Below are positions 4,850 to 49,053 of a DNA stretch of 52,890 nt, piece by piece. The notes under the pieces are model-generated. The model worked only from the letters and a program-made list of their open reading frames with translations. It did not search any database and was not told the origin of the DNA. The translations under genes were made by a program, and so were the position numbers. This DNA is from Candidatus Flexifilum affinis (GTDB lineage Bacteria > Chloroflexota > Anaerolineae > Aggregatilineales > Phototrophicaceae): positions 1 through 52,890 of the forward strand of contig JADJPJ010000029.1 of the NCBI GenBank assembly GCA_016713325.1. The letters run 5' to 3'. Numbering within the stretch: position 1 is the first letter of the stretch; each line of letters starts with the position of its first letter.

Positions 4850-5329
4850 ATCATCGGAGGGAGAATTGAGGCAGTATCTGCAGAGTGAAACCGGTCAAAC
4901 CGATCAGCCTCGTCAGCATTCACTCGGCTGGCTGATCGGTTTGACGGGTCTGATCGGTTTTCGCGGCTACGATCGCGCCAGCGGCTGCACGTCGTAGCGC
5001 TGCATCATGTCCAGCACCTGTGTGCGGTCGATGGCGTAGATTTTGCCCTCGGCCGTGTGCTGCCGGCGATTGCGGTCCATCAGCCCCAGCCGCTTGAGCA
5101 CATGCCCGATCCACTGCGCTGCGTTCGTCCGTTCGTCACCGCCGTCCAGGATGCGGTTCACCTGCTCCCGCAGCGCCGCCGCCGTCAGCCAGCAGGAGGC
5201 GGCAGCGCTTCCGCCTTCCGTCATCCGCTCCAGCGCCTGCAGCACCGCCTCCTCCCGGTCGTTGAGCGCCCGCCCATCGCCCAGCTCCACATCCCACTGC
5301 GCAGCATCCGCCACCGCTGCTCGCAGACC
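4850..5329 (-). repeat. 480-bp direct repeat, copy B (within the intact primase gene)
   Basis: This is the same 480 bases as copy A at 2538-3017, direct orientation, no net length change. It covers the terminator-like inverted repeat and the 3' end of the intact primase gene, so this copy is presumably the source. A shortened, indel-rich relative lies at 48336-48694. Confidence 0.9.
4896..4943 (-). terminator. Inverted repeat downstream of the primase gene
   Basis: Perfect 14-bp arms CAAACCGATCAGCC (4896-4909) and GGCTGATCGGTTTG (4930-4943) flank a 20-base loop, 24 bases past the primase stop codon on the minus strand. Position and stem strength fit a terminator or an RNA-stabilising hairpin. 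A following half copy CTGATCGGTTTT lies at 4950-4961. The structure is conserved in all three copies of this repeat, and substitutions in the third copy (right arm CTGATCAGTTTG) weaken only one pair. Confidence 0.6.
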
Positions 5330-7528
5330 GACAATTCCGCCCTCCTCCTCGAAGAACGCTGCCAGCGCCATCAGCGGCGACCACAGCTCAGCAGACCGGT
5401 TGTTCAGCGGGTGCAGTTCGGGCCGCGCCGTGTAGTTGTGGCGCACCTCCTGGAACGCCGTCAGCGCCAGGGTGTAGAGCTGGTGCCGCAGCGCAGCTCC
5501 GTCGAAGTTCGCCGGGAACACCGGCAGCTTCTGCATCGTCCGCCGCATCGGCAGCGCGATGCAGCGACTGGCCAGCACATCCTCCAGCCCGGCAATCGCC
5601 GCCAGGATCTTCGGCGAGTAGACGTCGAACGTCTGCGGCCTGTGCTCGTCGCCGATGAGCCTCAGCGCCGGCATCCCCGCCTTGTAACCGCTGTTCAGGA
5701 GCTGCCGGATCTGCGCCATCGCCGGGTCGCGCGGGCTGTGGTAGCGCTCTGCCTCGTCGATGCCCACCGTGCAGCTTGTCATGTGGATCAGGCGGAACAG
5801 ACTGGCCCCGGTCGGGTCCGCGGTGCTGACCATGTTGAAGGCCAGCGGCTGCAGGACGCGCAGCACTGTGCTCTTGCCACTGTTTTTCGGTCCATTCAAC
5901 GCGAGATAGGGATAGGCGGGGAAGAGCGCATAGAAGTAGGTGCCAATCGTCCACAGCGCCAGCACATGACTCTCCACTTCCGAGCGGAATTCGAGATAGG
6001 TCGCCAGCAGTCTTCGAAGCGTCAAATAGACCTCTCCCGGCGAGGCGATCTCCCCGGCCAGGTAGCGCTGGATGTCGCTGTAGCGCCAGCGCATCAGGAA
6101 GTCGCCACCGTCGGGGATACTCCGCAGCGCGATCTCCCGTCCGCCGACCTCGACCACCTGCGCGCCGTTGAGCCGCACCAGCTCACGGGCGCTGCTCACC
6201 AGGTATGGCTGCAGGACCAGACGGTTGTCGCGGGTCCGCTCCCGCAGCGTGACGGTCACGATCCCCACCTCCTCGCTGAAGCCCTGCGCCGCCGACAGCA
6301 CCGGCACATCATCGTTTACGAGATCAAATTCCAGGGCGGACTCATGTGTCGCTGCCGCCGGCGTCGACTTCATCAGCGCAGTGATCAGCCGCGGCGGGAC
6401 GCCGAGCTCCTGCACGGCCGACCGGAACTGCGCCACCGCGTACGGGTCGAGGTCGCCGGCACTCGCAAAGCACTCCCGCAGCGCATCCTCCCGCGCCAGC
6501 CCTTCCAGCCGCCCTGCCCGCTCGACCTCGGCCAGCAGCCAGTTCTGCGACCGGTTGAGCAGCGCCTCAGCGTCCTCGCGCGTTCCTCCGGCCAGCAGCC
6601 ACTCGTTGGCATCCTTGATGCCCTCCGGCAGCGTCGGCAGAAAGGCCCGCGGGCCGAGTGCACGCGCCATCTGCCGCCCGATCTCCGACGCCTCTGGCGT
6701 GTTGTCCAACAGCACGAAGGCACGCCGCTGCCCCTTCAGCCGGCGCAGCAGATCCTCTGACGCGCGCATCCCGCCCAGCGCCACGGCCGGAATGCCCCAC
6801 CCGCCGAAGGTGATGGCATCCGCCTGCCCTTCGACGATTACGATATGCGGTGCATCCTCGTGGAACACATGGTTGAAGTAGGGCTGCCGCTCGCCGATGA
6901 CCTCCGCCGGCGGGTTGTAGTGGCGCTTCCCCTCGATCGACCGGCCGCTCAGATACGTCAGCCGACCTGATTCGCGGTGAACGTAGACCAGCATCCCCGC
7001 CGGGAACTTCTCCACCACCTTGCGCCACTTCTCAGATAGATGCAGATCCTTCAGCAGGACGCGCTTGTCCGCCGGCATGAAGCCCACCTGCTCGGCGCGC
7101 AGCGTCGCTGCCGGCCATCCACGGGTCTGTGTGGCGTACACCAGAGCACCGGGCGTCTGCATCAGGCACTCGTGCAAACGAGCGACCAGTTCGCGCTCCG
7201 CCCACAGGCCTGAGCGGCGAAAGTCGCTGTCCTTATCTATGAGAATGCCCGCCCGGTCAGCCAGGAGCTTAACCGCTTCCAGAAACATACCTGCATCGCG
7301 CGCGTTCCACCGCTCGCCGTAGCCAAGCAGGTGCCGCCCGGCGAAGTCGAACACGTCGCCCTGCTCACCTCGTGAATTCCAGAAGTAGTACTCCGTCTTC
7401 GGCGTCACCACCAGACTGTCGTGGTCCACACCGATGTAGCGCGCTCCCTGCCTGCGCAGAGGATAGCGTTCACCGATGACCTGCTGGATCGGGCAGCGCG
7501 CCCGGATCGGGTCGAGATCGAGGGTCAT
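4967..7528 (-). CDS. Plasmid/phage-type primase with Toprim and P-loop ATPase domains
   Basis: Start ATG 7528 is chosen over an upstream TTG (7546) because GGGAG sits 8 bases before it; the product is about 853 residues and unbroken. The N-terminus (residues 1-95) resembles the DnaG-type primase zinc-binding module (YFWNSRGEQGDVFDFAG) but lacks the Cys/His cluster. Residues about 228-316 form a Toprim domain: IVIVEGQADAITF supplies the catalytic Glu, and KDANEWLL is typical. The acidic pair is reduced to LLDNTPEAS, so one usual Asp is Asn. Residues about 535-680 hold a P-loop ATPase (Walker A GPKNSGKST, Walker B VGIDEAE, possible arginine finger LASRCIALPMRR). The last 120 residues look like a winged-helix DNA-binding region. 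Such primase-ATPases start replication of plasmids and phages. It is the last gene of a parA-parB-primase set, which supports a role in replicon maintenance. The 3' end is duplicated elsewhere in the window. Confidence 0.8.
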   Translation of the reverse strand: MTLDLDPIRARCPIQQVIGERYPLRRQGARYIGVDHDSLVVTPKTEYYFWNSRGEQGDVFDFAGRHLLGYGERWNARDAGMFLEAVKLLADRAGILIDKDSDFRRSGLWAERELVARLHECLMQTPGALVYATQTRGWPAATLRAEQVGFMPADKRVLLKDLHLSEKWRKVVEKFPAGMLVYVHRESGRLTYLSGRSIEGKRHYNPPAEVIGERQPYFNHVFHEDAPHIVIVEGQADAITFGGWGIPAVALGGMRASEDLLRRLKGQRRAFVLLDNTPEASEIGRQMARALGPRAFLPTLPEGIKDANEWLLAGGTREDAEALLNRSQNWLLAEVERAGRLEGLAREDALRECFASAGDLDPYAVAQFRSAVQELGVPPRLITALMKSTPAAATHESALEFDLVNDDVPVLSAAQGFSEEVGIVTVTLRERTRDNRLVLQPYLVSSARELVRLNGAQVVEVGGREIALRSIPDGGDFLMRWRYSDIQRYLAGEIASPGEVYLTLRRLLATYLEFRSEVESHVLALWTIGTYFYALFPAYPYLALNGPKNSGKSTVLRVLQPLAFNMVSTADPTGASLFRLIHMTSCTVGIDEAERYHSPRDPAMAQIRQLLNSGYKAGMPALRLIGDEHRPQTFDVYSPKILAAIAGLEDVLASRCIALPMRRTMQKLPVFPANFDGAALRHQLYTLALTAFQEVRHNYTARPELHPLNNRSAELWSPLMALAAFFEEEGGIVGLRAAVADAAQWDVELGDGRALNDREEAVLQALERMTEGGSAAASCWLTAAALREQVNRILDGGDERTNAAQWIGHVLKRLGLMDRNRRQHTAEGKIYAIDRTQVLDMMQRYDVQPLARS

Positions 7529-7615
7529 GAGCTTGTCTCCCGGCAATACGAAGCCAGCGCCGCCCGCCTGAGCGGCGAAAAATCGCAGTTGAATTGTCAG
7601 CGGTCCGGGAGTGTG

Positions 7616-7649
7616 ATAGAGTTTGAGGTGTCCAGTCTCAAATCTCTAT
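7616..7649. repeat. Imperfect inverted repeat in the parB-primase gap
   Basis: ATAGAGTTTGAG (7616-7627) pairs with CTCAAATCTCTAT (7637-7649) with one bulged base and a 9-base loop. It lies about 90 bases upstream of the primase start on the minus strand, so it could be an operator or a leader hairpin for that gene. No consensus is recognised. Confidence 0.5.
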
Positions 7650-7664
7650 CGGTTCCCGCCCAGA

Positions 7665-7749: not shown

Positions 7750-7775
7750 AAAAGGTTTACGCGCGTAAACCTTTT
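7750..7775. promoter_or_regulatory. 26-bp perfect palindrome, candidate parS centromere
   Basis: The 26 bases are exactly self-complementary, with core GGTTTACGCGCGTAAACC. It lies 120 bases past the parB stop and about 220 bases upstream of the primase start. ParB proteins bind palindromes, often placed next to the parAB genes, and the TTTAC...GTAAA core is similar in style to known parS palindromes. It is the only such sequence I can see in the window. An RNA hairpin or terminator is the alternative; the run after the right arm (CCTTTT) is too short to be convincing. Confidence 0.55.
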
Positions 7776-7894: not shown

Positions 7895-8977
7895 TCATCT
7901 TTCATGCTGAGCCGCCGGGATCAGGCCCTGGCAATCCTTCACCTGGGGCGACAGCGGGCTGAACCCGTCCTGGTCATCCGATCCGTCCTGGGGTTGTTCA
8001 CCTCGGCAGGTCGCGGATCTCACCTGCCGATTCAGGCTGAACTGGATCGCGTGCAGCACCATCTCCGCCTGAAGCTCCGGGTCCAGATCGAGCATCGGAC
8101 GCAGCCGAAACTCGTCCACATTGTTGCGATCAGCCAGCTCCATCGCTTCGTCGGAGAGGCTGAGCAAGGCTTTGTACTGACTGAAGCGGACTCTGTCGAT
8201 GCCACCCATCGCCGCGAGGATGACCTCGGTGAACTCACGCCGGCCCCGCAGGTCAATTGTCAGCGCCTGCCGGTAGAAGTCGTTGTCCACGGCATAGGCA
8301 GGGATCTCGTAGCCATGCACCGTCAGCAGCAGCAGCGCCGCCTGCCGCGCCATGGCAATCGCCGACAGCCCTGCCCGTGCCGTGTTCTCCCGCGCCTGCC
8401 GGAACGGTGATGACTTCTCCGCCGGAATGACGATGCACGGGATCAGCCCATCGCTCTCGTAACCCGGGATGAAGTCGCGCAGCAGCCATGTCGCCCAGTA
8501 GCGCCGCTCCCCCGTCTCGATGCGGTACTGCCGCGTCACCCCCTGCGTCACATCCACCACCGTCAGCGGGTTCACCTGCCCGTCGTCGCGGATCGTCATC
8601 GCCAGGTTCACCAGGTCCCGCACCAGCGCCTCTTCAGGGGATAGCACCGACGACTCGATTTCCTTTTCTTCCTCGCTGTTTCCCAGCAGCTCCAGCACGT
8701 TGCTGAACGGTCGCCCGTTCTGCCGTGCCGCGATCTGCGCCGTCTGGATCAGCTCGCGCAGCGCCTGCGTCGGCGTCAGCCGGCTGTTGTGGAACGCCTG
8801 ATACACCCGCTCCGGCAGGATCCGCCGCGGCTGTGCCGGGTCCGGCCGTACCATCTCCAGCAGAATCCGCTCCACCCGCACACCGCCGTCGTCGACAATC
8901 TCGAAATCCACACCGCCCAGCATCTCCGCCGTCACGCTCGCCAGCATCCCCGTGTTCGCCTCTCGCTTCCGCGTCAT
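7895..8977 (-). CDS. parB: ParB/RepB-like partition protein
   Basis: The start ATG 8977 overlaps the parA stop by 4 bases (ATGA), a sign of translational coupling; the product is about 360 residues. The ParB N-terminal nuclease-like fold is visible: VRPDPAQPRRIL near residues 45-56, then GQVNPLTVVDV, YRIETGERRYWATWLL (the GERR box) and a helical stretch RENTARAGLSAIAMARQAALL as in the DNA-bridging region. An insertion of about 80 residues, rich in E, N and S, separates the first motif from the rest and is longer than usual. ParB binds parS palindromes and stimulates the ParA ATPase to separate replicon copies. A perfect palindrome lies directly downstream. The C-terminal 40 residues are Gln/Asp-rich and could reflect a late frameshift. 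The symbol is given by family, not by orthology to a named replicon. Confidence 0.8.
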   Translation of the reverse strand: MTRKREANTGMLASVTAEMLGGVDFEIVDDGGVRVERILLEMVRPDPAQPRRILPERVYQAFHNSRLTPTQALRELIQTAQIAARQNGRPFSNVLELLGNSEEEKEIESSVLSPEEALVRDLVNLAMTIRDDGQVNPLTVVDVTQGVTRQYRIETGERRYWATWLLRDFIPGYESDGLIPCIVIPAEKSSPFRQARENTARAGLSAIAMARQAALLLLTVHGYEIPAYAVDNDFYRQALTIDLRGRREFTEVILAAMGGIDRVRFSQYKALLSLSDEAMELADRNNVDEFRLRPMLDLDPELQAEMVLHAIQFSLNRQVRSATCRGEQPQDGSDDQDGFSPLSPQVKDCQGLIPAAQHER

Positions 8978-9807
8978 GCCCCCGCCTCCTTCCGGCCGAA
9001 CAGCTGCCGCACCAGCCCATCCACGACGTGGCCATAGGCTTTCGCCGCCGTTGCCTTCGGTTCGTAGTGGAAGATGCTCAGATGGTGGTGATGGGAGTAG
9101 GACACCGCTTCGTTCTGCGGCACCACGCCGCGCAGCAATCCGCCCAGGACGCTGTGCGCCTTCAGCTCGCCCAGCAGCTGGTTGTGCCCGCGCACCCGGC
9201 CGTCCATCTTCGTCACCAGGATGCCCCGCACCCGCAGGCTCGGATGCCGCCAGCCTTCCCGGATGTCGCTGATCTTCTGCATCACGCTCAGCAGCCCCAC
9301 CGTCTCCAGGTAGCGCGGCTCCACCGGGATCAACGCGTCCGTCGCCGCCAGCAGTCCCATCTCCGTCAGCAGCGAGAACGAGGGTCGGGTGTCGATGACG
9401 ACGGCGGCGTAGTGCGAGGCAATCCGGCTGAGCGGTTCGGCGATCCGGAACGGCGCGCCGGCCACCCCCATCAGCTCCCGCTCCGCCCCTTCCAGCATCG
9501 GCGAAGCGGGCAGCACGTGCAGGTCGGCGTCCCAGGCGCTCTGCACGATGCAGTCGGCCATCGCCTGTGCGGCGTCTTTGCGCTCGGCCATCAGCACCGT
9601 GTACAGGCTGTTGTCCGCGCCGAAGTCCCGCCGCCCTGTCGTCACCAGCGAGGCGTGTCCCTGGCTGTCGGTGTCGATGAGCAGCACCCGTGGATGAGCA
9701 GCGCCGTAGTGCCGCAGCGCCGCGACCAGGCCAAACGCGATGTTGGTGGCTGAAGTGGTCTTTCCTAGCCCACCCTTGTGGTTGGTCAGAACAATCGATT
9801 GGGTCAT
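8974..9807 (-). CDS. parA: ParA-type partition ATPase
   Basis: Start ATG 9807 follows a strong ribosome site (GGAGGGAACAGCTC); the in-frame extension to 9870 lacks one. The product of about 277 residues begins MTQSIVLTNHKGGLGKTTSA, the deviant Walker A of ParA/MinD/Soj proteins (KGGxGKTT). It continues with VLLIDTDSQGHA (Walker A' and switch I), AAVVIDTRPSFSLLTEMGL (Walker B) and ALIPVEPRYL. No N-terminal helix-turn-helix is present, so it is a small type Ib/Soj-like ParA. It overlaps parB and probably drives the parA-parB unit. An 8-bp inverted repeat (9872-9897) lies about 65 bases upstream and is a candidate autoregulatory site. No frameshift is needed. Confidence 0.88.
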   Translation of the reverse strand: MTQSIVLTNHKGGLGKTTSATNIAFGLVAALRHYGAAHPRVLLIDTDSQGHASLVTTGRRDFGADNSLYTVLMAERKDAAQAMADCIVQSAWDADLHVLPASPMLEGAERELMGVAGAPFRIAEPLSRIASHYAAVVIDTRPSFSLLTEMGLLAATDALIPVEPRYLETVGLLSVMQKISDIREGWRHPSLRVRGILVTKMDGRVRGHNQLLGELKAHSVLGGLLRGVVPQNEAVSYSHHHHLSIFHYEPKATAAKAYGHVVDGLVRQLFGRKEAGA

Positions 9808-9897: not shown

Positions 9898-9930
9898 AAG
9901 GCGTCGTCATCCTCCGCGACGGCGCGTTCT

Positions 9931-9966
9931 GGTGGGTCGGGGCGTGCTGTCTGCGCCCGACTCACC
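9931..9966. terminator. GC-rich hairpin in repeat R2
   Basis: GGTGGGTCGGG (9931-9941) can pair with CCCGACTCACC (9956-9966) with one mismatch. The copy at 48735-48770 pairs perfectly over 11 bp. Conservation of the pairing suggests a functional hairpin or protein site, but no T-tract follows. Confidence 0.45.
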
Positions 9967-10108
9967 TGAACTGATAAGGTTGGTTCGGTTCGAGAGTTGT
10001 GTGAGTTGCTCACGCTGAGGAAATTGAAGCCGCTGCAGGAACTCTACAGTGGAAACAGGGGAAGAACTGGGTTCGAAATAGCTCCTAGTGCGCCCATCGC
10101 TCGCTCAG

Positions 10109-10346: not shown

Positions 10347-12041
10347 TCACTCTCGCTCAAACAGCGCTGATGAACATGTCGTCAGCGCTGTTTTCTTGCT
10401 TGGGTCGGTTCGAATCCTGTTGGGAGTCGTTGCCCGCTCGTTCCGCTTGCTCTGTGTCGCACTCAGCCAGACGTCGCCTTGCGTCCAGGTGCGATCGATA
10501 TAGCGCCACATCGTTCCGGTGGGATTGCGATCCTGTAGCTCCGGGGGCCAGGCGGTGCGAGCGGACGTTGTCAGTAGCGGGGCAAGGGCGGCGAAGCGGT
10601 GCAGCGAAGCGGGGAATACCCACGGCCGTGAACCCGGGTGGCCGGTGGATGGGAAGGGTCCGCCGTGGTTCATGGCTGGGCTGACGGTCACGCCGGTGGG
10701 CATCTTGTCATTGAGCAACCGGCCGACCTTGCCGCGCAGCGCCGGCTCGATGGCGTCGTACAACGCGTCGTCGGCGCTCCCGGTGTGGCTGTAAATCGAC
10801 CCGGTCAGGTTGCCTTCCAGACTGGCTATCGCCTGCACCAATTCGGCTTCGCTGTCAGCCACGATGACCAGCGACGCCGCGCCGAATGCCTCTGTCTGGA
10901 GCTCGGATGGGTGCGCCATGAAGGTTTGAGCGCTCACCCGGTAAAGCGTGTTCTGGAACCGGAAGCGCTCGCCTGGAACTCTGGCTCCGCCCGTGATGCG
11001 CGAGGCGCCTGCAGACTCCCAGGTTTGTACGGCCTCGGCCATGCTCTCCGGACCGTACTCGCTGAGCAGGATGCCTCCCTCGGTCGAGTCGAAACGGGAG
11101 CGGGCCTGCTCGATGAATTGCTCTGCGATGTCGCCGGCCAGCAAGAAGACCAGACCGGGATTGGTGCAGAATTGGCCGGCGCCCAGGGTGCAGGAGGCAT
11201 ACAGCGCGTCGGCAATGGTCTCCAGGCGTTCGTCGAGAGCGCCGGGCAGGACGAAAACCGGGTTCACGCTGGACAGCTCCAGGTAGATGGGCTTGCCGGC
11301 CGCGTCGGCGGCGCGCTTGAGATTCAGGCCGGCCTTGCTGCCGGTGAAGGCCGTCGCGCCGATGGCGGGATGCGACACCAGCCTCAGACCATTTTCGGGG
11401 GCGGTGCGGTAGAGCATCTGCACTGTGGCGCGCGGGACGCCGGTCGCCTGGATAGACTCCAGCGCGGCCTGTGCCAGCAGTCGAGTGGTATGCGCGTGGG
11501 ACGGGTTGGCCTTGGCGATGACCGGGTTGCCGCTGGCGATGGCTGCCGCGAAGTCGCCGCCGCTCGCCCCGTTGAAGGCCAGTGGGAAGTTGTTCGGCCC
11601 GAAGACGACCACCGGTCCGCCCAGCGGGCCGAACATGCTGCGGATGTTATTGGCGGTGTCGAGGGTGGCCGTCACCCAGGATCGATCCTCGACTGCCCAG
11701 GCGGCCTGCCGGAGCTGATTGACCGTGCGGTCCAGCTCCCCTTGCAGGCGGGGCGACGCCGACAGGGCGGTCTCGGTGTAGGCGGCGGTAACGATCGCCT
11801 CGCGATTCGCTTCGATCCGGTCGGCGAAGTCCGTGAGGAAGGCTGCGCGTGTTTCCAGAGGGGTATCGCGCAGTTCTACGGCCGCCTGCGCTCCGGCCTG
11901 GATCATGGCCTCCACAGTGTCCAGCGGTGAAACGGGAAATTCGTAGGGAAGGGGTTCGCCAGTCGTCGGGTTGACCGACTGGAACGTCTTTTCTTCGGCG
12001 GCGTGCTCCCACCGGCCGTTCAGTAGAATTGGTTCGCTCAA
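10347..12041 (-). CDS. Alpha-ketoglutarate-semialdehyde dehydrogenase (KGSADH), C-terminal frameshifts
   Basis: The protein starts with TTG at 12041 (MSEPILLNGRW), supported by GGAGG seven bases upstream. It matches the KGSADH/2,5-dioxovalerate dehydrogenase branch of the aldehyde dehydrogenases: FGPNNFPLAFNGASGGDFAA (cofactor region), FTGSKAGLNL, LELSSVNPVFVLPGAL (general-base Glu region), AGQFCTNPGLVFL (catalytic Cys) and LNDKMPTGVTVSPAMNHGGP near the C-terminus. After GHPG the frame is lost: GGTTCACG where GGTTTCACG would give the expected GFTAVGIP, then the frame changes at least once more before ELQDRNPTGTMWRYID. The open frame runs to 10347 through a terminator hairpin, so the real stop is probably at 10400-10500. 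The enzyme oxidises 2-oxoglutarate semialdehyde with NAD(P) to 2-oxoglutarate, the last step of non-phosphorylating sugar-acid pathways. It is the last gene of the long minus-strand cluster. Confidence 0.85.
   Translation of the reverse strand: MSEPILLNGRWEHAAEEKTFQSVNPTTGEPLPYEFPVSPLDTVEAMIQAGAQAAVELRDTPLETRAAFLTDFADRIEANREAIVTAAYTETALSASPRLQGELDRTVNQLRQAAWAVEDRSWVTATLDTANNIRSMFGPLGGPVVVFGPNNFPLAFNGASGGDFAAAIASGNPVIAKANPSHAHTTRLLAQAALESIQATGVPRATVQMLYRTAPENGLRLVSHPAIGATAFTGSKAGLNLKRAADAAGKPIYLELSSVNPVFVLPGALDERLETIADALYASCTLGAGQFCTNPGLVFLLAGDIAEQFIEQARSRFDSTEGGILLSEYGPESMAEAVQTWESAGASRITGGARVPGERFRFQNTLYRVSAQTFMAHPSELQTEAFGAASLVIVADSEAELVQAIASLEGNLTGSIYSHTGSADDALYDAIEPALRGKVGRLLNDKMPTGVTVSPAMNHGGPFPSTGHPGSRPWVFPASLHRFAALAPLLTTSARTAWPPELQDRNPTGTMWRYIDRTWTQGDVWLSATQSKRNERATTPNRIRTDPSKKTALTTCSSALFERE
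10360..10395. terminator. Strong 11-bp hairpin with T-tract past the semialdehyde dehydrogenase gene
   Basis: AACAGCGCTGA (10360-10370) and TCAGCGCTGTT (10382-10392) are perfect complements with an 11-base loop, followed by TTCTT on the plus strand. The minus-strand side has only TTTGAG. It sits at the end of the minus-strand dehydrogenase operon, so it may be bidirectional and insulate that operon from the partition module. Confidence 0.65.
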
Positions 12042-12065
12042 GATATTGCCTCCGATTGTATGTCG

Positions 12066-13192
12066 TCAATCAAGGGCAAAACGGGTCGCCTGGATGCAGG
12101 TGACTCCGCCACTGTCCTGTCCATAATATACCGTGTAGACGTGGCCTGGGGTGAGCACCGCAGCCGGATAGCCCAGATCGCGGTTGGGTAAATCGTCGCG
12201 CACAATCAGCGGTGATTGCCCGTCCCAGGTGCGGCCGCCATCCTCGAAACGACCGCGCGAATGCCATAGGGGGCGTAGCGGTAGCCGTAGACGCACAGAA
12301 TGCGTCCGTCGGAGAGGGGAGCAATGGCCGGGATACCCCTGAAAGGGGCACCGGTTTCGGCGGCGACCAGGTGGTGCCCCCCCATCGGACGAGAAGACCG
12401 TATGCATGATGCGGCCAGAGTTCTCGCGCAGCATGACCAGCAGCCGGCCGTCGGGCAGTTCCAGGATGGATGGCTCCTCGAACTGCTTGCCCGACTCGCT
12501 GGCGATCTCGACCGGCGGTCCCCAGGTGCGGCCGTCGTCGCTGGAGCGTACGAGGAAGACAGTGCGATAGTTGGGCACATCGCTCAGCGGCAGCAGAATG
12601 TCACCGTTGGAGAGCTGCACGGCGCCACGCATACCATAGCCGCCGGAATAGGGGGCGGTGGAAATACGAACGGTCTTGTCCCAGGTGCGCCCGCCATCAT
12701 GCGAGAAGTGGGCGTATGTGCCGTCGCTGCCTCTGGCCCAGGGGACGTAATCCGCCGGATTCTCAGGGAGCATGTCGAGCGTGTGCAGTTCGCTGGAGAT
12801 CAGCAGTTCAGAGACCCAGTCCTCCGGGAAGAAGAGGCGCTCGCCGCCGGGTAGCTGACGCGCCGTTTCGATGGGATACCACTTGAAGCGCCACTGATTG
12901 AGCATGAGCAAGTCGCCGGCCAGGACGGTCAGGCCGGCGCATTCGACGCCGTACCAGTCGTAGCCGGGCACGACACGCGGCGTCTCCCAGGTAGCGCCGC
13001 TGTCCGACGAGCGGATCATGAGGTTGTAGTAGTGGGGATCATTTGGTGGGTGCAGCAGAAACGGCCGCCGAACCGACCGGTTGAACACCACCACCCATTC
13101 GCCGTTTGGCAGGCTGGCGATAAACGGGTGAGCGCAGTAGGCATAGGATCTTTGTGCAAGATCTGCTGGTCGAGGATGCGCACGGACGCCAT
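12066..13192 (-). CDS. Sialidase-like six-bladed propeller protein, second of a tandem pair, frameshifted
   Basis: Start ATG 13192 lies 3 bases after the stop of the preceding sialidase-like gene and begins MASVRILDQQILHKDP; one frameshift near 13150 leads into YAYCAHPFIASLPNGEWVVV. Repeated Asp boxes (SxDxGxTW) mark the propeller blades: SSDSGATWETP, SHDGGRTWDKT, SSDDGRTWGPP and FEDGGRTWDGQ. Further frame changes occur around 12260-12390. The end, IQATRFALD, is at 12066, 25 bases before the KGSADH start. No signal peptide is visible, so it is probably cytoplasmic. Asp-box proteins include true sialidases and many glycoside-processing or glycan-binding relatives; the Arg triad needed for sialic acid is not clear here, so substrate is open. 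Two copies in tandem beside a sugar ABC transporter suggest work on an imported oligosaccharide. Confidence 0.72.
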
Positions 13193-13195
13193 TGA

Positions 13196-39062: not shown

Positions 39063-39073
39063 TATCGAACGGA

Positions 39074-40620: not shown

Positions 40621-40733
40621 GTCCTATCCCTCTGTATCTAGCCCGCAGCTTTAAACGCCGAGACAGGACGATGATAGCCCCCCACCCACCAGAATTCAGA
40701 CGATTGCGAGGTCGTTTAACCGAATGGAGCACA

Positions 40734-40749
40734 AACACCGAAACGTGTT
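40734..40749. promoter_or_regulatory. Inverted repeat upstream of the binding protein gene
   Basis: AACAC (40734-40738) and GTGTT (40745-40749) flank CGAAAC in the 183-base gap between the DeoR gene and the binding protein gene. It is a candidate DeoR operator by position only. The remaining gap holds no gene. Confidence 0.3.
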
Positions 40750-40803
40750 CACTTTGATGAAAGGGCTGCTTTCGGCTTAACACGGATACAACAGCCGCCG
40801 TGG

Positions 40804-41584
40804 TCATTCCGCGATAATCACTTTGAGGCCGCGCTGGCGCAGCGACTCGGCGGTCTCCAGCGGAATAAGCCGATCTGTCACCACCGTATCAATCTCACTC
40901 CAATCGCAAATCGTGACCAGCGGCGGCAGGTCAAACTTGGTGTGATCTGCTACGAGAATGCAAGATTTGGCGACCGCCACCAGTTCGCGCAGATACATGA
41001 CGTTGAGGATGTGTCCAGCGCTGACTCCGTGTTGGAGGTGGGCGGCGGTCACGCTCAGATACAGGCGATCGATCCCTGAAGTCGCGCACGGACGGGATGG
41101 AGTTCGGGCCGATCAGATTGTCGCGCCCTAGCCGCACAAACCCGCCCGGAACGAATACGCTGACCTGGTCGAATTCAGAAAGCGCCCGCACATGCGACAG
41201 GTCATTGGTGATGACGGTTAGTCTGCGCCACTGTGTTAGGTTGAGCGCCACCTGTGCGGTGGTCGATCCGCTCGCCAGAGCGACCGTCTCGCCATCACGA
41301 GCCAGATCCGCCGCTGCCCGCCCGATGACGCGTTTTTCTTCCAGGCAGGTAATCTCGCGATCGCGATAGAAGCGCGCCAGTTTATCGGATACCTGTGCGA
41401 CATGAACCGCCCCGCCATGCGTGCGATGTACCAAACCGTCTGCCTCGAGCGTTTTCAGATCGCGTCGGACGGTGGCGGGAGAGACGTAAAGCTGTTTCGC
41501 CATCGCATTGACGCTGATGTGTCCGTACTTCAAGAGCTGATCGATCATGTAATCGACACGCTTGTACTGCTCGTCTAACCGCAT
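40804..41584 (-). CDS. DeoR-family transcriptional regulator, one frameshift
   Basis: Start ATG 41584 (MRLDEQYKRVDYMIDQLLKY). The DeoR helix-turn-helix is HISVNAMAKQLYVSPATVRR followed by DLKTLEADGLVHRTHGGAVH, a textbook match. The sensor domain has ADLARDGETVALASGSTTAQ, LTVITNDLSHVRAL and VFVPGGFVRLGRDNLIGPNS; one shift near 41075 leads to LYLSVTAAHLQHGVSAGHIL and LVADHTKFDLPPLVTICDWS. About 260 residues. DeoR regulators bind phosphorylated sugars and repress the adjacent operon. It lies between two transport sets, with a minus-strand binding protein downstream and plus-strand permeases upstream, so it may control both. Confidence 0.88.
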
Positions 41585-41690
41585 GGCAACCCTTCACCAC
41601 CTGACCCTTGCACATCTTCGATGATAGCGACTATTTATCTCGGCAGCACCCGGACCCCCGACCATCGAATGACGTGCATCCCTTAAACCG

Positions 41691-41719
41691 GTGACAACTG
41701 CATTAACACGAGCTATCTA
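41691..41719 (+). promoter_or_regulatory. Promoter-like pair before the second DppB-like gene
   Basis: GTGACA (41691-41696) and TATCTA (41714-41719) are 17 bases apart, 35 bases before ATG 41754. Both boxes match consensus only in part. Confidence 0.3.
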
Positions 41720-41753
41720 TAGTCCAATGGTTAGGTCGATTGGACTCCACCGT

Positions 41754-42675
41754 ATGAACCGACTCATCATCATTCGTCTTTTGCGGACACTGCTCACGCT
41801 CTTGGGTGTTGTGGTCATCACCTTCTTTCTCGGCCGGCTCACCGGGGACCCGGTCGCCATGATGCTGCCGCAGACCGCGACGCTCGAAGACTATGAACGC
41901 ACGCGCCGCCCTTGGTCTGGACCAGCCCCTGCTGGTGCAGCTCGCCGTGTATCTCGGAGATGTTGTTCGCGGTGATCTGGGTACCTCGATTGCGTATAAC
42001 CGGTCGGCGCTGAACGTCGTAATGGAACGCGTTCCCGCCACGCTTGAACTCGGCATCCCGGCGCTGATCGCGTCGATTGCGCTCGGTATACCGCTCGGCA
42101 TCATCACCGCCTATGGACGCAACCGCTGGTATGACCGGCTGATCATGAGCATGAGTCTGGCCGGCCAGTCGCTGCCGTCGTTTTTGTCGGCATTCTCCTG
42201 ATCCTGTTCTTCGGGGTCGAATTGGGATGGGTGCCAACTTTCGGACGCGAAACAGCCGAATCACTACATCCTGCCAACGATAACGCTGGCAATTTACCCG
42301 CTGGCCTTTATTGTCCGTCTGACGCGCTCGTCTATTCTGGAGATCTTGAGCGAAACCTATATCAAAACCGCCCATGCGAAGGGACTGGCGCCCAGACGTG
42401 TCATCTACATTCATGCGCTGCGTAACGCGCTGATTCCGGTAGTGACTGTGGTTGGCTTGCAGGTCGCCGCTATTCTGGGCGGTTCCGCCATTGTCGAGAC
42501 CGTTTTCGCATGGCCAGGAATCGGTTTGCTGGCTGTGCAGAGCATCGGCGGGCGCGACTTCCCGATTATCCAGACGATCGTGCTGATTTCGGCTGCCGCA
42601 TTTGGTATCACCAATTTGATCGTCGATTTCATCTACGTGATGGTTGATCCGAGAATACAGCAAACTAATGGCTGA
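41754..42675 (+). CDS. Oligopeptide-type ABC transporter permease, DppB-like (second system), frameshifted
   Basis: Start ATG 41754 (MNRLIIIRLLRTLLTLLGVV). The chain runs ITFFLGRLTGDPVAMMLPQT, then shifts near 41905 to ALGLDQPLLVQLAVYLGDVV and RGDLGTSIAYNRSALNVVME, LGIPLGIITAYGRNRWYDRL and SLAGQSLPSF; it shifts again near 42180 and 42250 to YPLAFIVRLTRSSILEILSE, TYIKTAHAKGLAPRRVIYIH and ETVFAWPGIGLLAVQSIGGR. It ends at TGA 42673-42675 after VMVDPRIQQTNG. About 307 residues. The ATG of the next permease lies 8 bases before this stop. No strong ribosome site is visible at the start. It is divergent from the DeoR gene. Confidence 0.87.
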
Positions 42676-43573
42676 ACAGGTCGTCCGAATCTCGCCGCCG
42701 GTGCGTGACCCCGCGCCGCGCAAGGCCAATGGTTTCCTCAGGACATGGCTCGAACGCAGCAATCTCGCTGTGAATCTCAGCATCCTGGTGCTGATAACGC
42801 TCACGTTCGTGGTCACCACCGCCGACATCCTTGCCCCGCATGATCCGAACTCGATGAATCTTCTCAACCGGCTGGATCCGCCCGTCTGGCAGGGCGGCTC
42901 ATGGGAATTCCCACTCGGCACCGACGCACTAGGACGCGACCTTCTCAGCCGCATCTTCTATGGCGGTCGAATTTCCCTGGCAATTGGTGGCGCCTCGTCG
43001 CTGCTCGGATTGGCGATAGGGACGCTGCTGGGACTGATTTCCGGTTACGCACGCGGCTGGGCCGACCACATCATTATGTACCTGGTCGATGTTCAGCTCT
43101 CCCTGCCCTTCGTGCTGCTGGCGGTGGCGGTCGCCTTAGTGCTTGGGACATCGCTTGCCGTGCTGATCTTTATGGCGGCGCTTGCCACCTGGCCGGTGTA
43201 TACGCGAGTAGTGCGCGGCATCGTTTTGAGCCTGCGTGAACGAGAGTTCGTGATAGCATCGCGCGCGATCGGCGCGACCAATCTACACATTATGCTGAGG
43301 CACATTTTCCCCAATATGCTCGCGCCGCTGCTGGTGCTGATCACGCTCAGCGTGGGGCGCATCATCCTTCTGGAGAGCGGCCTGAGCTTTCTCGGCATCG
43401 GCGTGCAACCGCCGACACCCTCATGGGGCAACATGATCAACGAAGGCCGTGAGTACCTCTCCACCGCGTGGTGGATTGCCAACATGCCCGGCATCGCGCT
43501 GGTTCTGCTCACGATGGCGGTGGGCACGATTGGTGACTGGCTGCGCGATGTTTCGGATGTCTCCATCGGGTAG
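42668..43573 (+). CDS. Oligopeptide-type ABC transporter permease, DppC-like (second system)
   Basis: Start ATG 42668 (MAEQVVRISPPVRDPAPRKA) overlaps the preceding gene. It is almost intact: LAVNLSILVLITLTFVVTTA, WEFPLGTDALGRDLLSRIFY, LLGLISGYARGWADHIIMYL, VDVQLSLPFVLLAVAVALVL, EREFVIASRAIGATNLHIML, RHIFPNMLAPLLVLITLSVG and SGLSFLGIGVQPPTPSWGNM. The end reads GDWLRDVSDVSIG where LRD.LDP. is usual, perhaps a terminal indel. About 301 residues. The ligand-binding protein for this pair is probably the Tat-type family 5 protein at 45760-47311, and the ATPases must be elsewhere. Confidence 0.92.
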   Translation: MAEQVVRISPPVRDPAPRKANGFLRTWLERSNLAVNLSILVLITLTFVVTTADILAPHDPNSMNLLNRLDPPVWQGGSWEFPLGTDALGRDLLSRIFYGGRISLAIGGASSLLGLAIGTLLGLISGYARGWADHIIMYLVDVQLSLPFVLLAVAVALVLGTSLAVLIFMAALATWPVYTRVVRGIVLSLREREFVIASRAIGATNLHIMLRHIFPNMLAPLLVLITLSVGRIILLESGLSFLGIGVQPPTPSWGNMINEGREYLSTAWWIANMPGIALVLLTMAVGTIGDWLRDVSDVSIG

Positions 43574-43770
43574 ACAGCCGCCGCACCGTTGACTGATCCG
43601 AAGTTCAACCTGTGTTTTGTCCACTGCAAGCCGGTCGTGACCTTAACGTCGCGCCGACCGCATTTAATGCCCGATTCAACGTCATTTAGCAGCGCGCGGC
43701 TAAACTCCGCTCGGGTATACCAGATTCAACAATCAGACAGCCTATTGTCAGAAGGGGAAGTCGCAGCTTT
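43574..43770. other. Gap before the TIM-barrel gene
   Basis: This 197-base stretch has no gene I can support. A TTGACTGATCC near 43588 resembles a -35 box, but a matching -10 is not clear. A ribosome site (GGGGAAG) ends the gap at 43754-43760. Confidence 0.3.
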
Positions 43771-44335
43771 ATGTCGGAGAAAGCTTTCAAGATCGGTGCA
43801 TCGACGGATGTACGCAAACTGCCCGAGATCGTGGACTGGATCAAGGAATCTCACCGCGATCTGGAATTGTACACATTGGCGGGATTGCTCGAACCTGCTC
43901 AGGACCTCAGAACTGTTTTCAAGGAGGTGCCAGGCCTGCTGGACGGCTATCAGGGGCGATTTGGTCTGCATGGCCCCATCCTGTCCGCACAGCGGCCGGA
44001 CAGTGACCTGGGCCGGATTATCCTGCGCATGTATCGGGAATATCTGGAACTATGCGGTGATCTCAAGGCCACCCATATGGTCATACACAGCCCGTTTCAG
44101 TCGCTGGGCGCCCCTTTCCCCATGTTGCTCACCGAGGCAAAGGCTGGGTCATGTTCATGTGCAGGATACCGACGGCTACACCGATCGTCACTGGCCGCCC
44201 GGGCAGGGACACATTGGCTGGTACGGCTTCTTTCAAGCCCTGCGCGAACTCCCTCACGAACCCCGGTTGGTGCTGGAAGTCGCCGATGTGATGCGCGGTT
44301 TCCACTTTCTCAAAGACCAGGGTTTTGTCGAGTAA
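43771..44335 (+). CDS. Sugar phosphate isomerase/epimerase-like TIM barrel with internal deletion
   Basis: ATG 43771 (MSEKAFKIGASTDVRKLPEI) follows GGGGAAG. The AP-endonuclease-2-type (xylose isomerase-like) barrel is visible in GRFGLHGPILSAQRPDSDLG and MYREYLELCGDLKATHMVIH with SPFQSLG. At about 44138-44143 the frame moves to RLGHVHVQDTDGYTDRHWPP, GQGHIGWYGFFQALRELPHE and RLVLEVADVMRGFHFLKDQG. Family members are about 270 residues; here only about 188 remain, and the middle strands with a Glu/Asp metal-ligand segment (the part before GHVHVQD) are missing. So about 70-80 codons were lost at the junction, by real deletion or assembly collapse. It probably acted on a small sugar or sugar phosphate in the cluster. 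Confidence 0.72.
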
Positions 44336-44407
44336 GCCGTTCTCATCGTAGAGTGCCGTTGTCGGGTGTTTTCAACAGGCGTGGAGTCGCGCCATGCGCA
44401 GAAATCG

Positions 44408-44434
44408 CAGGGGCAGTCGTCGAGGCTGCCCCTG
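44408..44434. terminator. Perfect 9-bp hairpin between convergent genes
   Basis: CAGGGGCAG (44408-44416) and CTGCCCCTG (44426-44434) flank a 9-base loop in the 109-base gap between the plus-strand TIM-barrel gene and the minus-strand phosphatase gene. Position and stem favour a bidirectional terminator, though T-tracts are short. Confidence 0.6.
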
Positions 44435-44444
44435 CTCGCTAATC

Positions 44445-45703
44445 TTAACAGGGTTGAAAAATCGACTGACCGGGATAAGGGTCGAGCGGGAGTCCTAACA
44501 GCGCGGCGAAGGTAGGGGCCACCTGAATCGCTTCCGCACTTTCTGTGACACCTTGAGGCACGTTCGGACCGGCGAACACGCACAGGCGATCATCGCCGGG
44601 CAAGCCAGGACGAATGCCGTGGCTGGAGAGATGTTCCGGCCTGCCCACGGGGAGATTTGTCCTCGGGGTTCACCGGCTTGGCGATGATCTCGACTCCATC
44701 GGGCGCCACGAATACGCTCAATTGGTGCTTGAAGTCGTCCGGAATGTGGTCCTTGTTCCACGGTTCGACACCGAATTCGGCGAGCTTCTCCGTCACTTCC
44801 TGAAGCTGCGCTTCGCTTTCGGCGGCCACGTGCGGCATACTGCCATCCGGCGCGCAGTTGACTCCCGGCAGCAGGTTGTCCGTGTAGATTGCCCGCTCAA
44901 TGGGACTGTGACCATGATCGGCCATGATGGCCAAATTGTACTCGCCGAGTTTCCCGGCACTGGCGAGACGCTGCACCACCTTGCCGACCAGCATGTCGGC
45001 GTAAGCGATGGCAAAATGCGCATATTCGCTCTTGTATCCGGCGGAATGCTGCGCGCCATCCGGCATACCAACTTCGGTGATGATCAGGTCGACGTCTTCG
45101 TCGCTGGCGGCCAGTGCGCCTACCCAGTCAAAGACGCGATGATCGGCCATCAGCGCGTACTGCGCGAAAGTCGCGGGCGTGACCTTCTCGATGTCCAGCG
45201 GCGGCATGTCGGTGGGCAGCCCTGTCGCCTCCATGATGCGGGTGAAGCGTTCATGATCGCCGCGAGCTTCAATGACTTTCTGCCAGATGTCACCACCCGG
45301 CTCCAGCGCCGCGCGCGGACGATGATTGGACCCGCCCACCATGGCGCACGGAAAATCTGGGCCGATTCCGGGCGCAGCATGCCAAAGCCCAGCACCACGA
45401 CATCCATCCCGGCTTCGCGCGCCGTTCGGGCAGGGTGGGCACGCGGACATCATACGGTGTAGGCAACCGAAAACGTTCGCCATCCCAGTACGGGTTGCCG
45501 ATGATGGCGCTCTCCGCGCCGGTGACACCGGTCATCATGCCGACGCGCCCCGCCAGCGACACGCCGACGACTGCCGAGTGTAGATTGCGCACATAGTGAC
45601 CCCGCGCGGCCAGTGCGCTGATGTGCGGCATGCGCGCACGTTCGTTTTGGAAGTACTCCGCGCTGATGCCGTCCAGCATCATGACGATCAGTTTATTGGG
45701 CAT
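44445..45703 (-). CDS. Alkaline phosphatase superfamily (type I phosphodiesterase/phosphonate hydrolase-like) protein, frameshifted
   Basis: Start ATG 45703 (MPNKLIVMMLDGISAEYFQN). The first metal Asp is in MMLDGIS; a nucleophile region is VVGVSLAGRVGMMTGV. Shifts near 45430 and 45345 lead through MDVVVLGFGMLRPESAQIF and FTRIMEATGLPTDMPPLDIE, then VDLIITEVGMPDGAQHSAGY (Asp and His ligands) and LAIMADHGHSPIERAIYTDN (Asp-His). A shift near 44660 leads to HLSSHGIRPGLPGDDRLCVF, then APTFAALLGLPLDPYPGQSI, ending FQPC at TAA 44445. About 415 residues. The layout D...S/T...D..H...DH...H fits NPP, phosphonoacetate hydrolase and phosphopentomutase-type enzymes. No signal peptide is seen, so a cytoplasmic phosphoester, or possibly a phosphonate, is the likely substrate. 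It lies 56 bases after the binding protein gene. Confidence 0.8.
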
Positions 45704-45759
45704 CGAATACCTTTTCCGACAGTAGGGCAGCATACGAGCATGCTGCCCCGGAATGGCTG

Positions 45760-47311
45760 CTAGAGGCTGAAGTTGTACGGGCGCAGATCGATGTAGAACA
45801 GCGGATGCGTCTGCCAGTTGATGTCTTCACGGGTCGCGAAGAAGTCCGACGTCTGGTAGACCGGAGTGTAAGGCACGTCCTCGAAGAACAGATCGGCAAT
45901 GCTGCGGATGTCCCGACGGCGTGTTTCGCGATCGAAGTTGGTTGACAGCCGTACCATGGCTTCGGTGTACGCGGCGGGGGGCGTGTAGTAGTTGTTGGTG
46001 AACAGCCCTGCCGAACGCCACACATTGAACGGCTGTAGCTCGCCATCACCGAACGAGTCCGAGGCTCTGGATCGTCGCCGTTACCCCGCGGCGAAGCAAG
46101 TACTTCTGACCGTAAGCGCCGATTTCCATCTGCTCGAATTCGGTGGTTACGCCGACTGCCTGCCACATGGCATCAATGACCGGGGTCAGCAGTTCCGGAA
46201 TTGACGTAGCCCGCCGGAGGCGTGAAGAAATCGGCGTGCCGTCGTAGTTGGCGGCTTCCAGCGCGGCGCGGGCAGCATCCGGGTTGTACTCGATCACAGG
46301 CAGGCTCTCGTCAAAACCGAGCGTTCCTGGCTGCAGATAGTCGGTCATCGGGCGTACAAACCCGCCGAACAGTTCATCCACAATTGTCTGACGGTCAATG
46401 GCGAGGGCCAGGGCGCGGCGAATGTTGACATCCGCGGTCGGACCGGTCTTGGTGTTGAACAGGACATTCATATGGTTGAACAGAGGCCCGGTGACCACCT
46501 TGAGGCCGCTGGAGCCGTTGATCGTGGCGATCTGGTCAATGGGCAGGTTGGCGATCATGTCCACTTCGCCGCTCTGCAGAGCGCCGACGCGAATCGCATT
46601 TTCGGGAATGAAGCGCACGATGATCCGATCTGCAGCCGGGCGCCCCCAGTATTCGCTGTGGGCTTCCAGCACCAGATGATCGGTCGTGAACTCGACGACT
46701 TTGTACGGCCCTGCCCCGACTGGCGCAATCTGGAGCGTGTCGAAATCGGTCGCTTCCGTGGCGGCACGCGGCATGATATTGGCCCAGTGATACGCCAGGC
46801 GCAGCGGGAGCAGTGGGTCAGGCTGAACCGAAGTAAACGTCACTTCCAGGTCGCCGGTCGCTTCGACATTTGCGATGAACGGGCGCAGCAGCGCATTACC
46901 GAAGTTCTGCGGGTACTCCTCAGACATCATGCGGTTGAAGCTGAAGACGACGTCGTCCGCGGTGAGGGGAGTCCCGTCGTGGAAGACCACCCCGTCGCGC
47001 AGGGTGAATCGCCAGCGATCCCCGTCGTTCGCCCATTCTGTCGCCAGCAGCGGCTGTGGCTGTCCATCTCGACCGACCTGCGTCAGGCTGTCGTGCATCA
47101 TGCCGTAAAAGCGGTAACCAATGTTGGAGGGGCCGTTCTGCGACTGTGCGTCCAGCGAAGTGACCCACGAATTCATGCCGATGGTGATGGTTCGGCCGGA
47201 TTGCAGAAGCGCTGGCACACCGAATGCCCGGGTCACCGGAGATAGTGCAGCGAGGGCGCCGGCCGTACCGGTCAGCTGGAGAAAACTGCGACGAGAAAAT
47301 CGGTGGTTCAT
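45760..47311 (-). CDS. Family 5 extracellular solute-binding protein with Tat-type signal, frameshifted
   Basis: Start ATG 47311 (MNHRFSRRSFLQLTGTAGAL) gives a twin-arginine signal, SRRSFLQ. Mature features: RTITIGMNSWVTSLDAQSQN, WRFTLRDGVVFHDGTPLTAD, DVVFSFNRMMSEEYPQNFGN, APVGAGPYKVVEFTTDHLVL, VDMIANLPIDQIATINGSSG and IRRALALAIDRQTIVDELFG. Frame changes near 46235 and 46050 lead through LLTPVIDAMWQAVGVTTEFE to SAGLFTNNYYTPPAAYTEAM and DVPYTPVYQTSDFFATREDI, ending DLRPYNFSL at 45760. About 515 residues. It probably serves the plus-strand DppBC pair 2 kb away. The phosphatase-superfamily gene follows on the same strand. Confidence 0.9.
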
Positions 47312-47526
47312 GAAACGTGCAACCCCTTGTGTGCGTGAACAACAAACAGATGGTATCCGGGTCACGTTAAGCAAGCGGTGGGCGGATTTAAGGCTTGACA
47401 TGATTCGCGTTAAATGGGCTTTGGCGGCAAATGGTGTCTGTTATCCTAGGTGTGGTTCACGGCATTGATCTGCAGGACTCACTTCGCAACCGCCACATTT
47501 TCACTATTCAGGAGCATCACACGACA
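47312..47526. other. Divergent gap with a TTGACA element
   Basis: A consensus TTGACA is at 47395-47400 on the plus strand, but no good -10 follows at 16-18 bases. The gap separates the minus-strand binding protein gene from the plus-strand phosphatase gene, so promoters in both directions are expected. No gene is seen. Confidence 0.35.
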
Positions 47527-48251
47527 ATGACTACGGGCATGCGGCACATCCCGCTCGAAGGCGCCGATAACGTACGCGATGTGGGCGGCTATGCGACTGC
47601 CGATGGACGTCTGACAAAGTGGAAAGCCTGTCTGCGGTCCGACCGCTCGCTCGATGCGCTCACTTCGGAAGCGCAGCAGCAGCTCCGGCGTATGGCGTGC
47701 GAACCTTTGTCGACTTGCGCTCCGAGGCGGAGGTGGCGGACAAACCGAATGTGTTCGCCAGTTCAACTGTGGTTCGTTACCGGCATGTTCCAATGTGGAC
47801 AGACCCGGCTGACGCGATTCGCATGCCGGTCGATCTGGCGACGGGCTATCGCGAGTTGCTGAATCGCGCAGTCGCAGATTCTGAAGGTGATGCATGCGCT
47901 TCTCGAAGCCGATGCGTTCCCGGTGCTCGTCCATTGCGCTGTGGGCAAAGACCGAACGGGGGTGATCATCGCGCTGCTGCTCGATCTGGCCGGCGTAACG
48001 GATGCCCTCATTGCAGAGGATTACGCACTGTCGATGGTTTATCTGGCTCGAAATTCGAAGTGATCCAGCAGGCGGTAATGCAACCGGACAAAGACTTCGC
48101 CGTGATGGAACCGCTGCGTTCCGAACCTGAAACGATGATCAGCACGCTTCATTATCTGGACGAGCGGTATGGTGGTGCAGCAGGTTATCTGCGTCTAATA
48201 GGTCTGAGCGATGTGCAGATTGACACACTGAAATCCGCGCTTATTGATTAG
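47527..48251 (+). CDS. Tyrosine-phosphatase-like (dual specificity/lipid phosphatase type) protein, frameshifted
   Basis: Start ATG 47527 (MTTGMRHIPLEGADNVRDVG) with NVRDVGGYATADGRLTKWKA, the usual start of the Y_phosphatase3-type family, then RSDRSLDALTSEAQQQLRRM. Shifts near 47695 and 47880 lead to GVRTFVDLRSEAEVADKPNV and the active site VLVHCAVGKDRTGVIIALLL (Cys-x5-Arg, with the Lys-Asp variant typical of lipid and inositol-phosphate phosphatases). A shift near 48050 leads to SKFEVIQQAVMQPDKDFAVM and YLDERYGGAAGYLRLIGLSD. About 240 residues. It is cytoplasmic. The KDR variant and the surrounding phosphoesterases suggest a phosphoinositide-like, inositol phosphate or small phosphoester substrate more than a protein; this is inference. 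Confidence 0.82.
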
Positions 48252-48335
48252 CGATGGCCTTCCCCGCCTTCGCCGCCGTCGGCTTGACCGGCAAATGGTA
48301 CGCCCTACGGCCCCTTGCATACACAGTCAGGAAAG

Positions 48336-48694
48336 ACAAAACCGATCAGCCTCGTCGGCATTCGCTCGGCGGGCTGATCAGTTTGACGGGTCTGATCGGT
48401 TTTTCGCGGCTACGACCTGCGCCCAGCGGCTGTACGTCGTAGCGCTCCATCATATCCAGCACCTGGTCCGGTCGATGGCGTAGATTTTACACCCTCCCGG
48501 CGTGTGCTGCCAGCGCCTGCGGTCCATCGGCCCCAGCCGCTTGAGACATGGCCAATCCACTGCGCTTTGTTCGTCCGCTCATCACCGCCATCAGGATGCG
48601 GTTCACCTGCTCCGCAGTGCCGCTGCCGTCAGCCAGCACGAGACGGCATCGTTTTCACCGTCCGGCACTCGCTCCAGATCTGCTTCCTCCGGTT
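48336..48694 (-). pseudogene. Degraded primase 3' end with terminator, third repeat copy
   Basis: The stretch begins with the same inverted repeat (CAAAACCGATCAGCC at about 48337-48351; GGCTGATCAGTTTG 48372-48385) and continues with the antisense of the primase C-terminus: TACGTCGTAGCGCT, CATATCCAGCACCTG and GGATGCGGTTCACC are all recognisable. Many small deletions break the frame, unlike copy A, so this copy is older or under no selection. Similarity stops near the position equal to 5265 in the intact gene. There it is joined directly to the region that lies upstream of parA in the intact module, so the primase N-terminal part, parB and parA (about 4.6 kb) are missing. This is the clearest sign of a deletion derivative of that module. 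Confidence 0.85.
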
Positions 48695-48701
48695 GTTCAG
48701 T

Positions 48702-49053
48702 GGAAGGCGTCGTCAGCTTCGCGACGGCGCGGTTAGGTGGGTCGGGCGTGCTGTATGCGCCGACCCACCTGAACTGATAAGGTTGGTTCGGTTCGAAGTT
48801 ATAGTGAGTTGCTCACGCTGAGAAATTGAAGCCGCTGCAGGAACTCTACATTGACAGGGAAGAACTGGGTTCGAAATAGCTCCTAGTGCAGGGCGAGAAG
48901 CAGGAAAGAAAAAAAAAAAAAAAAGCAGCCCATCGCTCGCTCAGAAACGCTGCCGAAGTATCTGGCAGCGTTTTTCTTTCCCTCAACTGGGTTCGAATCC
49001 TAGTGCGCGTTTGCTTATGTCTCCGTTGCGGTGCGAGGACCACCAGCCCCCCA
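48702..49053. repeat. Repeat R2, second copy beside the primase remnant
   Basis: This matches 9896-10211 in direct orientation. The GGTGGGTCGG hairpin (48735-48745 with 48760-48770) is perfect over 11 bp here, and the AAACGCTGCC hairpin (48945-48954 with 48964-48973) is perfect too, both better than in the first copy. An insertion with the A16 run separates two conserved parts. Confidence 0.85.
48945..48980 (+). terminator. Rho-independent terminator shape in R2 copy 2
   Basis: AAACGCTGCC and GGCAGCGTTT pair over 10 bp with a 9-base loop, followed by TTCTTTC. No gene ends directly before it. Confidence 0.6.

Follow-up and report, generated by a model that had tools for sequence, protein, structure and literature searches.

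The stretch of DNA analysed here (the window, 52,890 nucleotides of contig JADJPJ010000029.1 from Candidatus Flexifilum affinis, a member of the Chloroflexota) carries a parA-parB-primase module, parts of which recur elsewhere in the window. The repeated segments very probably mark where two, perhaps three, large integrative elements of one Chloroflexota family have their tail ends. In all likelihood these elements resemble integrative and conjugative elements (ICEs) and use a serine integrase whose attachment site (attP) lies in its own gene, so that integration splits the gene. The window copy has the recombinase tail, parA, parB and the primase, all in family order.

A serine recombinase gene divided between two element ends

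A scan of genome contigs gave 56 loci (numbered L; genomes are numbered G). Upstream of parA, clustering of the neighbouring genes placed a large serine recombinase in three loci (L025, L033 and L039); in L039, the one locus where it was domain-scanned, the protein matched PF00239 (Resolvase, E 2.6e-21) and PF07508 (Recombinase, E 8.6e-08). In L025 and L039 the recombinase frame continues into the tail, and L007 retains only the last 95 amino acids (aa) of the recombinase. The tail is kept at a nearly fixed distance from parA in 23 other loci and in the window. Moreover the modules of L044 and L047, which belong to different records, are 96% identical and diverge just ahead of the same word.

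The catalytic part of the gene was found in relatives 25-240 kb from the tail and on the same strand. In G009 the N-terminal part of the recombinase (N-part) terminates in an antisense tRNA-Lys gene; it shares contig and strand with the tail, at a distance of 125 kb. The delimited relatives have the module at one element end and the N-part at the other. The 2-bp crossover core starts a codon in 55 of the 59 N-parts (three gave no determination and one was ambiguous) and does so unambiguously in 28 of the 38 tails.

The structure predicted for the 604-residue enzyme (mean pLDDT 81.9, pTM 0.39) is mostly confident over residues 1-530, with long helices at 401-430 and 435-478, followed by disorder at 531-573 and two weakly predicted terminal helices. 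The crossover codon, 564, falls within the disordered linker of the model, so that integration would remove the end helices and spare the folded core. In addition, several contigs (G002:C44, G007:C43, G027:C40, G031:C237/C75/C115, G033:C325/C337/C197/C440, G036:C16 and G038:C82) have, immediately upstream of the full-length recombinase, a short paralogue of it (~317 aa) that corresponds to its N-terminal half.

tRNA junctions, spacing and core identity

Altogether 78 recombinase ends were examined for tRNA contact and motif spacing. The antisense 3' end of a tRNA gene adjoins 48 of them, the isotypes being Lys (13), Gln (8), Ser (8), Ala (5), Asn (5), Arg (4), Val (3), Glu (1) and Leu (1). All 48 show the same order of GTTC-motif, 15 bp, 2-bp core, 10 bp and T-loop motif (15-2-10), and the core follows the isotype, with GA at 13/13 Lys, TG at 8/8 Gln and GG at 8/8 Ser ends. 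When both motifs were fixed and spacers of 10-45 were allowed, a spacer of 27 was found in 56 of the 78 ends, 32 in two of them, and 16, 33, 42 and 45 once each.

Nine joints between N-part and tail (L007, L025, L030, L035, L039, L041, G060, G061 C1 and L188) are of the form 15-2-15. A study of large serine integrases places the zinc domain at positions 16-24 in attP and 11-19 in attB (PMC3783163); the 15-2-15 joints taken with the 15-2-10 tRNA ends reproduce the same 5-bp shift. Moreover the core is identical at both ends in all eight arrays read (G009, G022, G004 C6, C14 and C25, the Lys array and the Ala element of G060, and the G001 C1 array), with G022 matched to L044 by contig number and length, and the CC/CC cores of G061 C4 agree by eye. 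Tandem arrays are present in G001 C1 and G060 C1. Mirrored insertions, with a sense tRNA on the tail side at the 10-bp spacing, were found at tRNA-Met in G061, tRNA-Arg in G060 and tRNA-Phe in L028, where the tail frame is broken. The tRNA-Phe gene of the last locus (L028:7076-7386) has an intron in the anticodon loop and is joined directly to the element tail.

T-arm-like words upstream of parA were considered as tRNA scars and this was rejected, several of them being the T-loop-mimicking half-site within the recombinase gene. In many loci, including L022, L033, L044, L047 and L055, the tail core has next to it a unit of ~80 bp made of T-arm-like sequence and a hairpin. In the window it occupies 10.10-10.21, 10.34-10.44 and 48.90-49.05 kb and, being common to both window copies, it seems to travel with the element. 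Distant large serine recombinases (L296-L299 in G007, G008 and G009, 26-30% identical) lie near tRNA-Val or tRNA-Asp, and such tRNA-adjacent relatives suggest a broader tRNA-targeting clade.

Proposed mechanism of integration

In the circular form the large serine recombinase gene would stand directly upstream of parA-parB-parS-primase, with attP within its last ~45 codons. The recombinase would join the 2-bp core of attP to the 3' end of a tRNA gene, where the universal T-loop (GTTCGANT) would be read as the outer half-site motif. Integration would split the gene, leaving a catalytic and DNA-binding part of ~560 codons that ends against the tRNA and, at the far end, a tail (41 codons in L039) upstream of parA; in a mirrored insertion the tRNA would lie on the side of the tail. 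Repeated insertion at a single tRNA would build up tandem arrays, in which neighbours could rebuild a whole recombinase gene.

It is proposed more tentatively, and on the doubtful side of even, that this is the first self-splitting serine integrase and the first self-splitting integrase in bacteria, that the small helical C-terminal tail is removed by integration so that the rearrangement itself switches directionality or activity, and that it also couples the partition-primase operon to the recombinase transcript or uncouples the two.

Conjugation genes and other candidate mobilisers

A conjugation coupling protein is encoded in nine of the 12 paired elements. Nine of the 11 places where it was found in five genomes lie within 12 delimited elements, which make up 3.9% of the sequence; one weak further match, lying in no element, lowers this to nine of 12 places if it is included. 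The protein may point to conjugation. An SSB gene and regulators lie near the coupling protein of G009, and heavy-metal-type ATPases and a multicopper oxidase near the module of the same genome.

A phage origin was rejected, TerL (PF03354) being absent from the five genomes. A tyrosine integrase was also rejected as the mobiliser, as PF00589 matches in eight genomes, compared by eye, were not near modules; the nearest one sharing a contig with a module is ~130 kb away (G004 C6).

The copies in the window

The original prediction described two copies of one segment, in the same order and orientation, the second being a deletion derivative of the first. Self-alignment of the window gave 86.9% identity between the primase 3' ends (4897-5233 and 48339-48677) and 77.3% between the regions upstream of parA (9896-10211 and 48702-49047). 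The local alignment scores of the two pairs were 490 and 406, against 72 and 51 for the best of 100 shuffles, and the similarity is real. Order and orientation were thus borne out, but the simple pair was not, since the primase 3' end is present three times (2538-3017, 4850-5329 and 48339-48677), the first two being 88.75% identical without gaps. The copy at 48 kb is related to the intact module by internal deletion, as had been predicted, and it is decayed: it lacks parA, parB and the N-terminal part of the primase, and its primase C-terminal sequence is fused to the parA leader at a deletion joint at ~48.70-48.71 kb.

Tail 1 has the core GG and the half-site GCGCACTAGGAGCTA-TTTCGAAC, which is nearest by eye to Val-type acceptor sequences. 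Tail 2 is frameshifted (48806-48891) and has an insertion beside the core; the tRNA-like half-site near it has a spacing of 10 bp, although it is identical to the half-site of tail 1 over the first 10 bases of the latter. Both element ends point left, so that element 1 extends past the left edge of the window. The coordinates of the features are given in Table 1.

Table 1. Features of the window related to the integrative elements
Feature	Position	Strand	Basis
Third primase 3'-end copy, overlapping a 139-aa frame (2655-3074)	2538..3017	-	self-alignment, frame list
Reference copy of the repeat: primase 3' end with the hairpin downstream of it	4850..5329	-	self-alignment
Primase-helicase-like protein, 859 aa	4967..7546	-	open frame, homology
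Candidate parS: perfect palindrome of 26 bp between primase and parB	7750..7775	.	self-alignment, module comparison
ParB-like partition protein	7895..8977	-	open frame, homology
ParA-like ATPase	8974..9807	-	open frame, homology
Tail 1, the C-terminal end of the large serine recombinase: 62 codons and stop, reading in frame from the core	9907..10095	-	homology
attP-type right half-site of tail 1: core GG (10094-10095), N15, TTTCGAAC	10071..10095	-	motif comparison
Block of catabolic genes flanked by the two element ends; cargo or host DNA	10347..48250	.	domain scans, window searches
Further att-like or hairpin relic upstream of tail 1	10407..10425	-	read by eye
Deleted copy: primase 3' end containing indels	48339..48711	-	alignment
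parA-upstream region of the deleted copy: tail 2, hairpin, tRNA-like fragment	48702..49047	-	alignment
tRNA 3'-end-like half-site, GCGCACTAGG and ATTCGAACCC	48989..49008	-	motif comparison

Between the third primase end and the module (3.0-4.85 kb) the frames scanned gave no Pfam match. G012 and G009 also carry fragments of the primase end, at ~5 and ~23 kb downstream from modules. The flanks of the window (1-4.8 and 49-52.9 kb) contain many short or broken frames, whereas those of the module are intact; the broken frames may reflect decay or sequencing error alike. Weak Rfam-type matches near the repeats resemble chance or a terminator.

Alternative explanations

Several observations weigh against integration by a self-splitting integrase. 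A called tRNA is lacking at the core of 30 of the 78 recombinase ends, of which nine agree in spacing only, four are joints with a tail, four lie less than 300 bp from a contig end and 13 fit neither pattern; mirrored insertion may explain some of them. The phase could not be read in eight of the remaining 10 tails, one has two phases and L007 has another phase, its motif probably not being the true core. Elements were paired by order and strand, several of them on draft contigs, and in the G060 pair at 3351-3397 kb the recombinase end is unreadable. A search for an empty site of the G009 element found none, no circular form was seen, and PF03432 and PF08751, the two relaxase families searched, are absent from five genomes. 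Ten distant recombinases (25-31% identical) did not make a clean control, since four of them are also near a tRNA. A few members, L044 ('Bacteroidetes') and P0133 ('Blastochloris'), carry titles from outside the Chloroflexota. The window itself yielded no recombinase N-part (best hmmsearch E 0.52) and no tRNA or Rfam feature at gathering level, and its assignment therefore rests on homology to the tail and the module; the N-part of element 1 would be expected beyond the left edge. The module could instead be a cryptic chromosomal or plasmid-derived partition-primase cassette, spread by homologous recombination and with the recombinase as an unrelated neighbour. Modules are indeed multi-copy, few have a whole recombinase adjacent and deleted copies recur; nevertheless the tail is homologous to the recombinase end, with nearly fixed spacing and mostly one phase, and the core dinucleotides agree at both element ends, which makes such a cassette improbable. 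An integrase that splits its own gene remains the preferred reading.

Two further questions concern the 48-kb copy and the 38-kb block that precedes it. The many single-base indels and the long A run of this copy could be taken as the work of misassembly or nanopore-type errors, whereas an echo of that kind would be expected to be nearly identical and the copy is 13-23% apart from the others; such an origin is scarcely credible. Divergence among all the repeat copies is 11-23%, which also makes recent duplication unlikely. Domain scans of 38 window frames in all found Aldedh, BNR, parts of ABC transporters, PhnI and PhnJ and phosphodiesterase-type proteins in the block, many frames being short or broken, and the catabolic clusters do lie between the repeats as was first described. 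Given the family layout and the left-pointing ends, the stretch from 48.3 kb to ~10.4 kb would form the body of a second element, in tandem with the first, with a collapsed module and a lost recombinase N-part, the block being its cargo. Both ends point the same way, tandem arrays of this layout exist (G001 C1, G060) and collapsed modules are known elsewhere (L041, L049). However, the window has neither a recombinase remnant nor a match to the coupling protein of G009 (best tblastn E 2.3). The carbon-phosphorus (C-P) lyase region, matched in 21 of 98 genomes with three candidates scored per genome, lies outside the delimited elements of G001, G022, G060 and G061. The chances of cargo are put a little short of even. 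With the N-part absent by the 10-kb end and the C-P lyase cluster outside the elements of relatives, it is no less likely that the block is ordinary host DNA, the 48-kb copy being the isolated scar of a lost element, and for this the chances are about even; the sequence right of 49 kb has a lower G+C and is full of broken frames, whereas the shared orientation of the two ends and their nearly identical half-sites suggest a common target. The earlier view of a plasmid-borne or integrated segment thus holds for the module, as part of an integrated mobile element. Excision or duplication of the block by recombination between the repeats, also proposed then, found no support, the repeats being 77-87% alike and the modules dispersed in 12 relatives.

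The parA-parB-primase module and its family

At E <= 0.001 the primase matched 323 relatives; 120 of these were listed, and wherever a name was given there it was that of Anaerolineae/Chloroflexi or of unclassified bacteria. In the 12 Chloroflexota genomes there are 1-6 primase matches per genome, fragments included, and the order parA-parB-primase is invariant wherever all three were matched. No record in the plasmid and phage collections covered 80% of the primase, and viral contigs reached up to 38% identity over the best segment. A perfect palindrome of at least 20 bp is present between parB and the primase in 23 of 40 modules (the window included), with arms that vary between copies, as would fit diverging parS sites. 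Internal deletions were found elsewhere, joining parA residues 1-169 to primase residue 192 onwards in L041 and parA 1-99 to primase 550 onwards in L049. Recurring neighbours of the module are a LexA-type DNA-binding protein (9 loci), a Bro-N protein (8) and a CoiA-like protein (4), which sit downstream of the primase in L012, L049, L014, L016 and others.

Comparison with known systems

In the open-access literature of PubMed Central no bacterial or serine self-splitting integrase was recognised from titles and the beginnings of abstracts. If the mechanism is true, an unrelated bacterial enzyme would have arrived at the self-splitting of the archaeal tyrosine type, a clear case of convergence against the background given in a review (PMC8371274). 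It would also offer a test of how elements with self-splitting integrases escape and persist. Use of the universal T-loop as the target motif would account for the range of tRNA isotypes open to a single enzyme family, and it suggests integrases with portable targets. Moreover the spacing rule provides a precise delimiter for the large, tandemly stacked islands of Chloroflexota.

The elements share with ICEs and tRNA genomic islands the insertion at tRNA 3' ends, the tandem arrays, a coupling protein of type IV secretion systems (T4SS) and accessory genes, and differ from them in having a partition-primase module at one end and no relaxase of the two families searched. With large serine integrases of the A118, phiC31 and Bxb1 type the enzyme shares the Resolvase and Recombinase domains, the 2-bp core and the displacement of the zinc-domain motif by 5 bp between attP and attB (PMC3783163). 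Unlike in those integrases, attP lies in the coding end of the gene itself and attB is formed by the 3' ends of tRNA genes of at least nine isotypes.

Integration of the SSV1 type targets tRNA genes. The review describes self-disrupting recombinases as exclusively archaeal, the att site lying inside the integrase gene, which is split on integration; the suicidal integrases of SSV1, pTN3 and pT26-2 are likewise of this kind (PMC8371274). As read from the sequence of the split, the enzyme described here would work like a suicidal (SSV1-type) integrase and is not a member of that family: the archaeal enzymes are tyrosine recombinases, whereas that of Chloroflexota is a bacterial serine recombinase that loses only its C-terminal tail.

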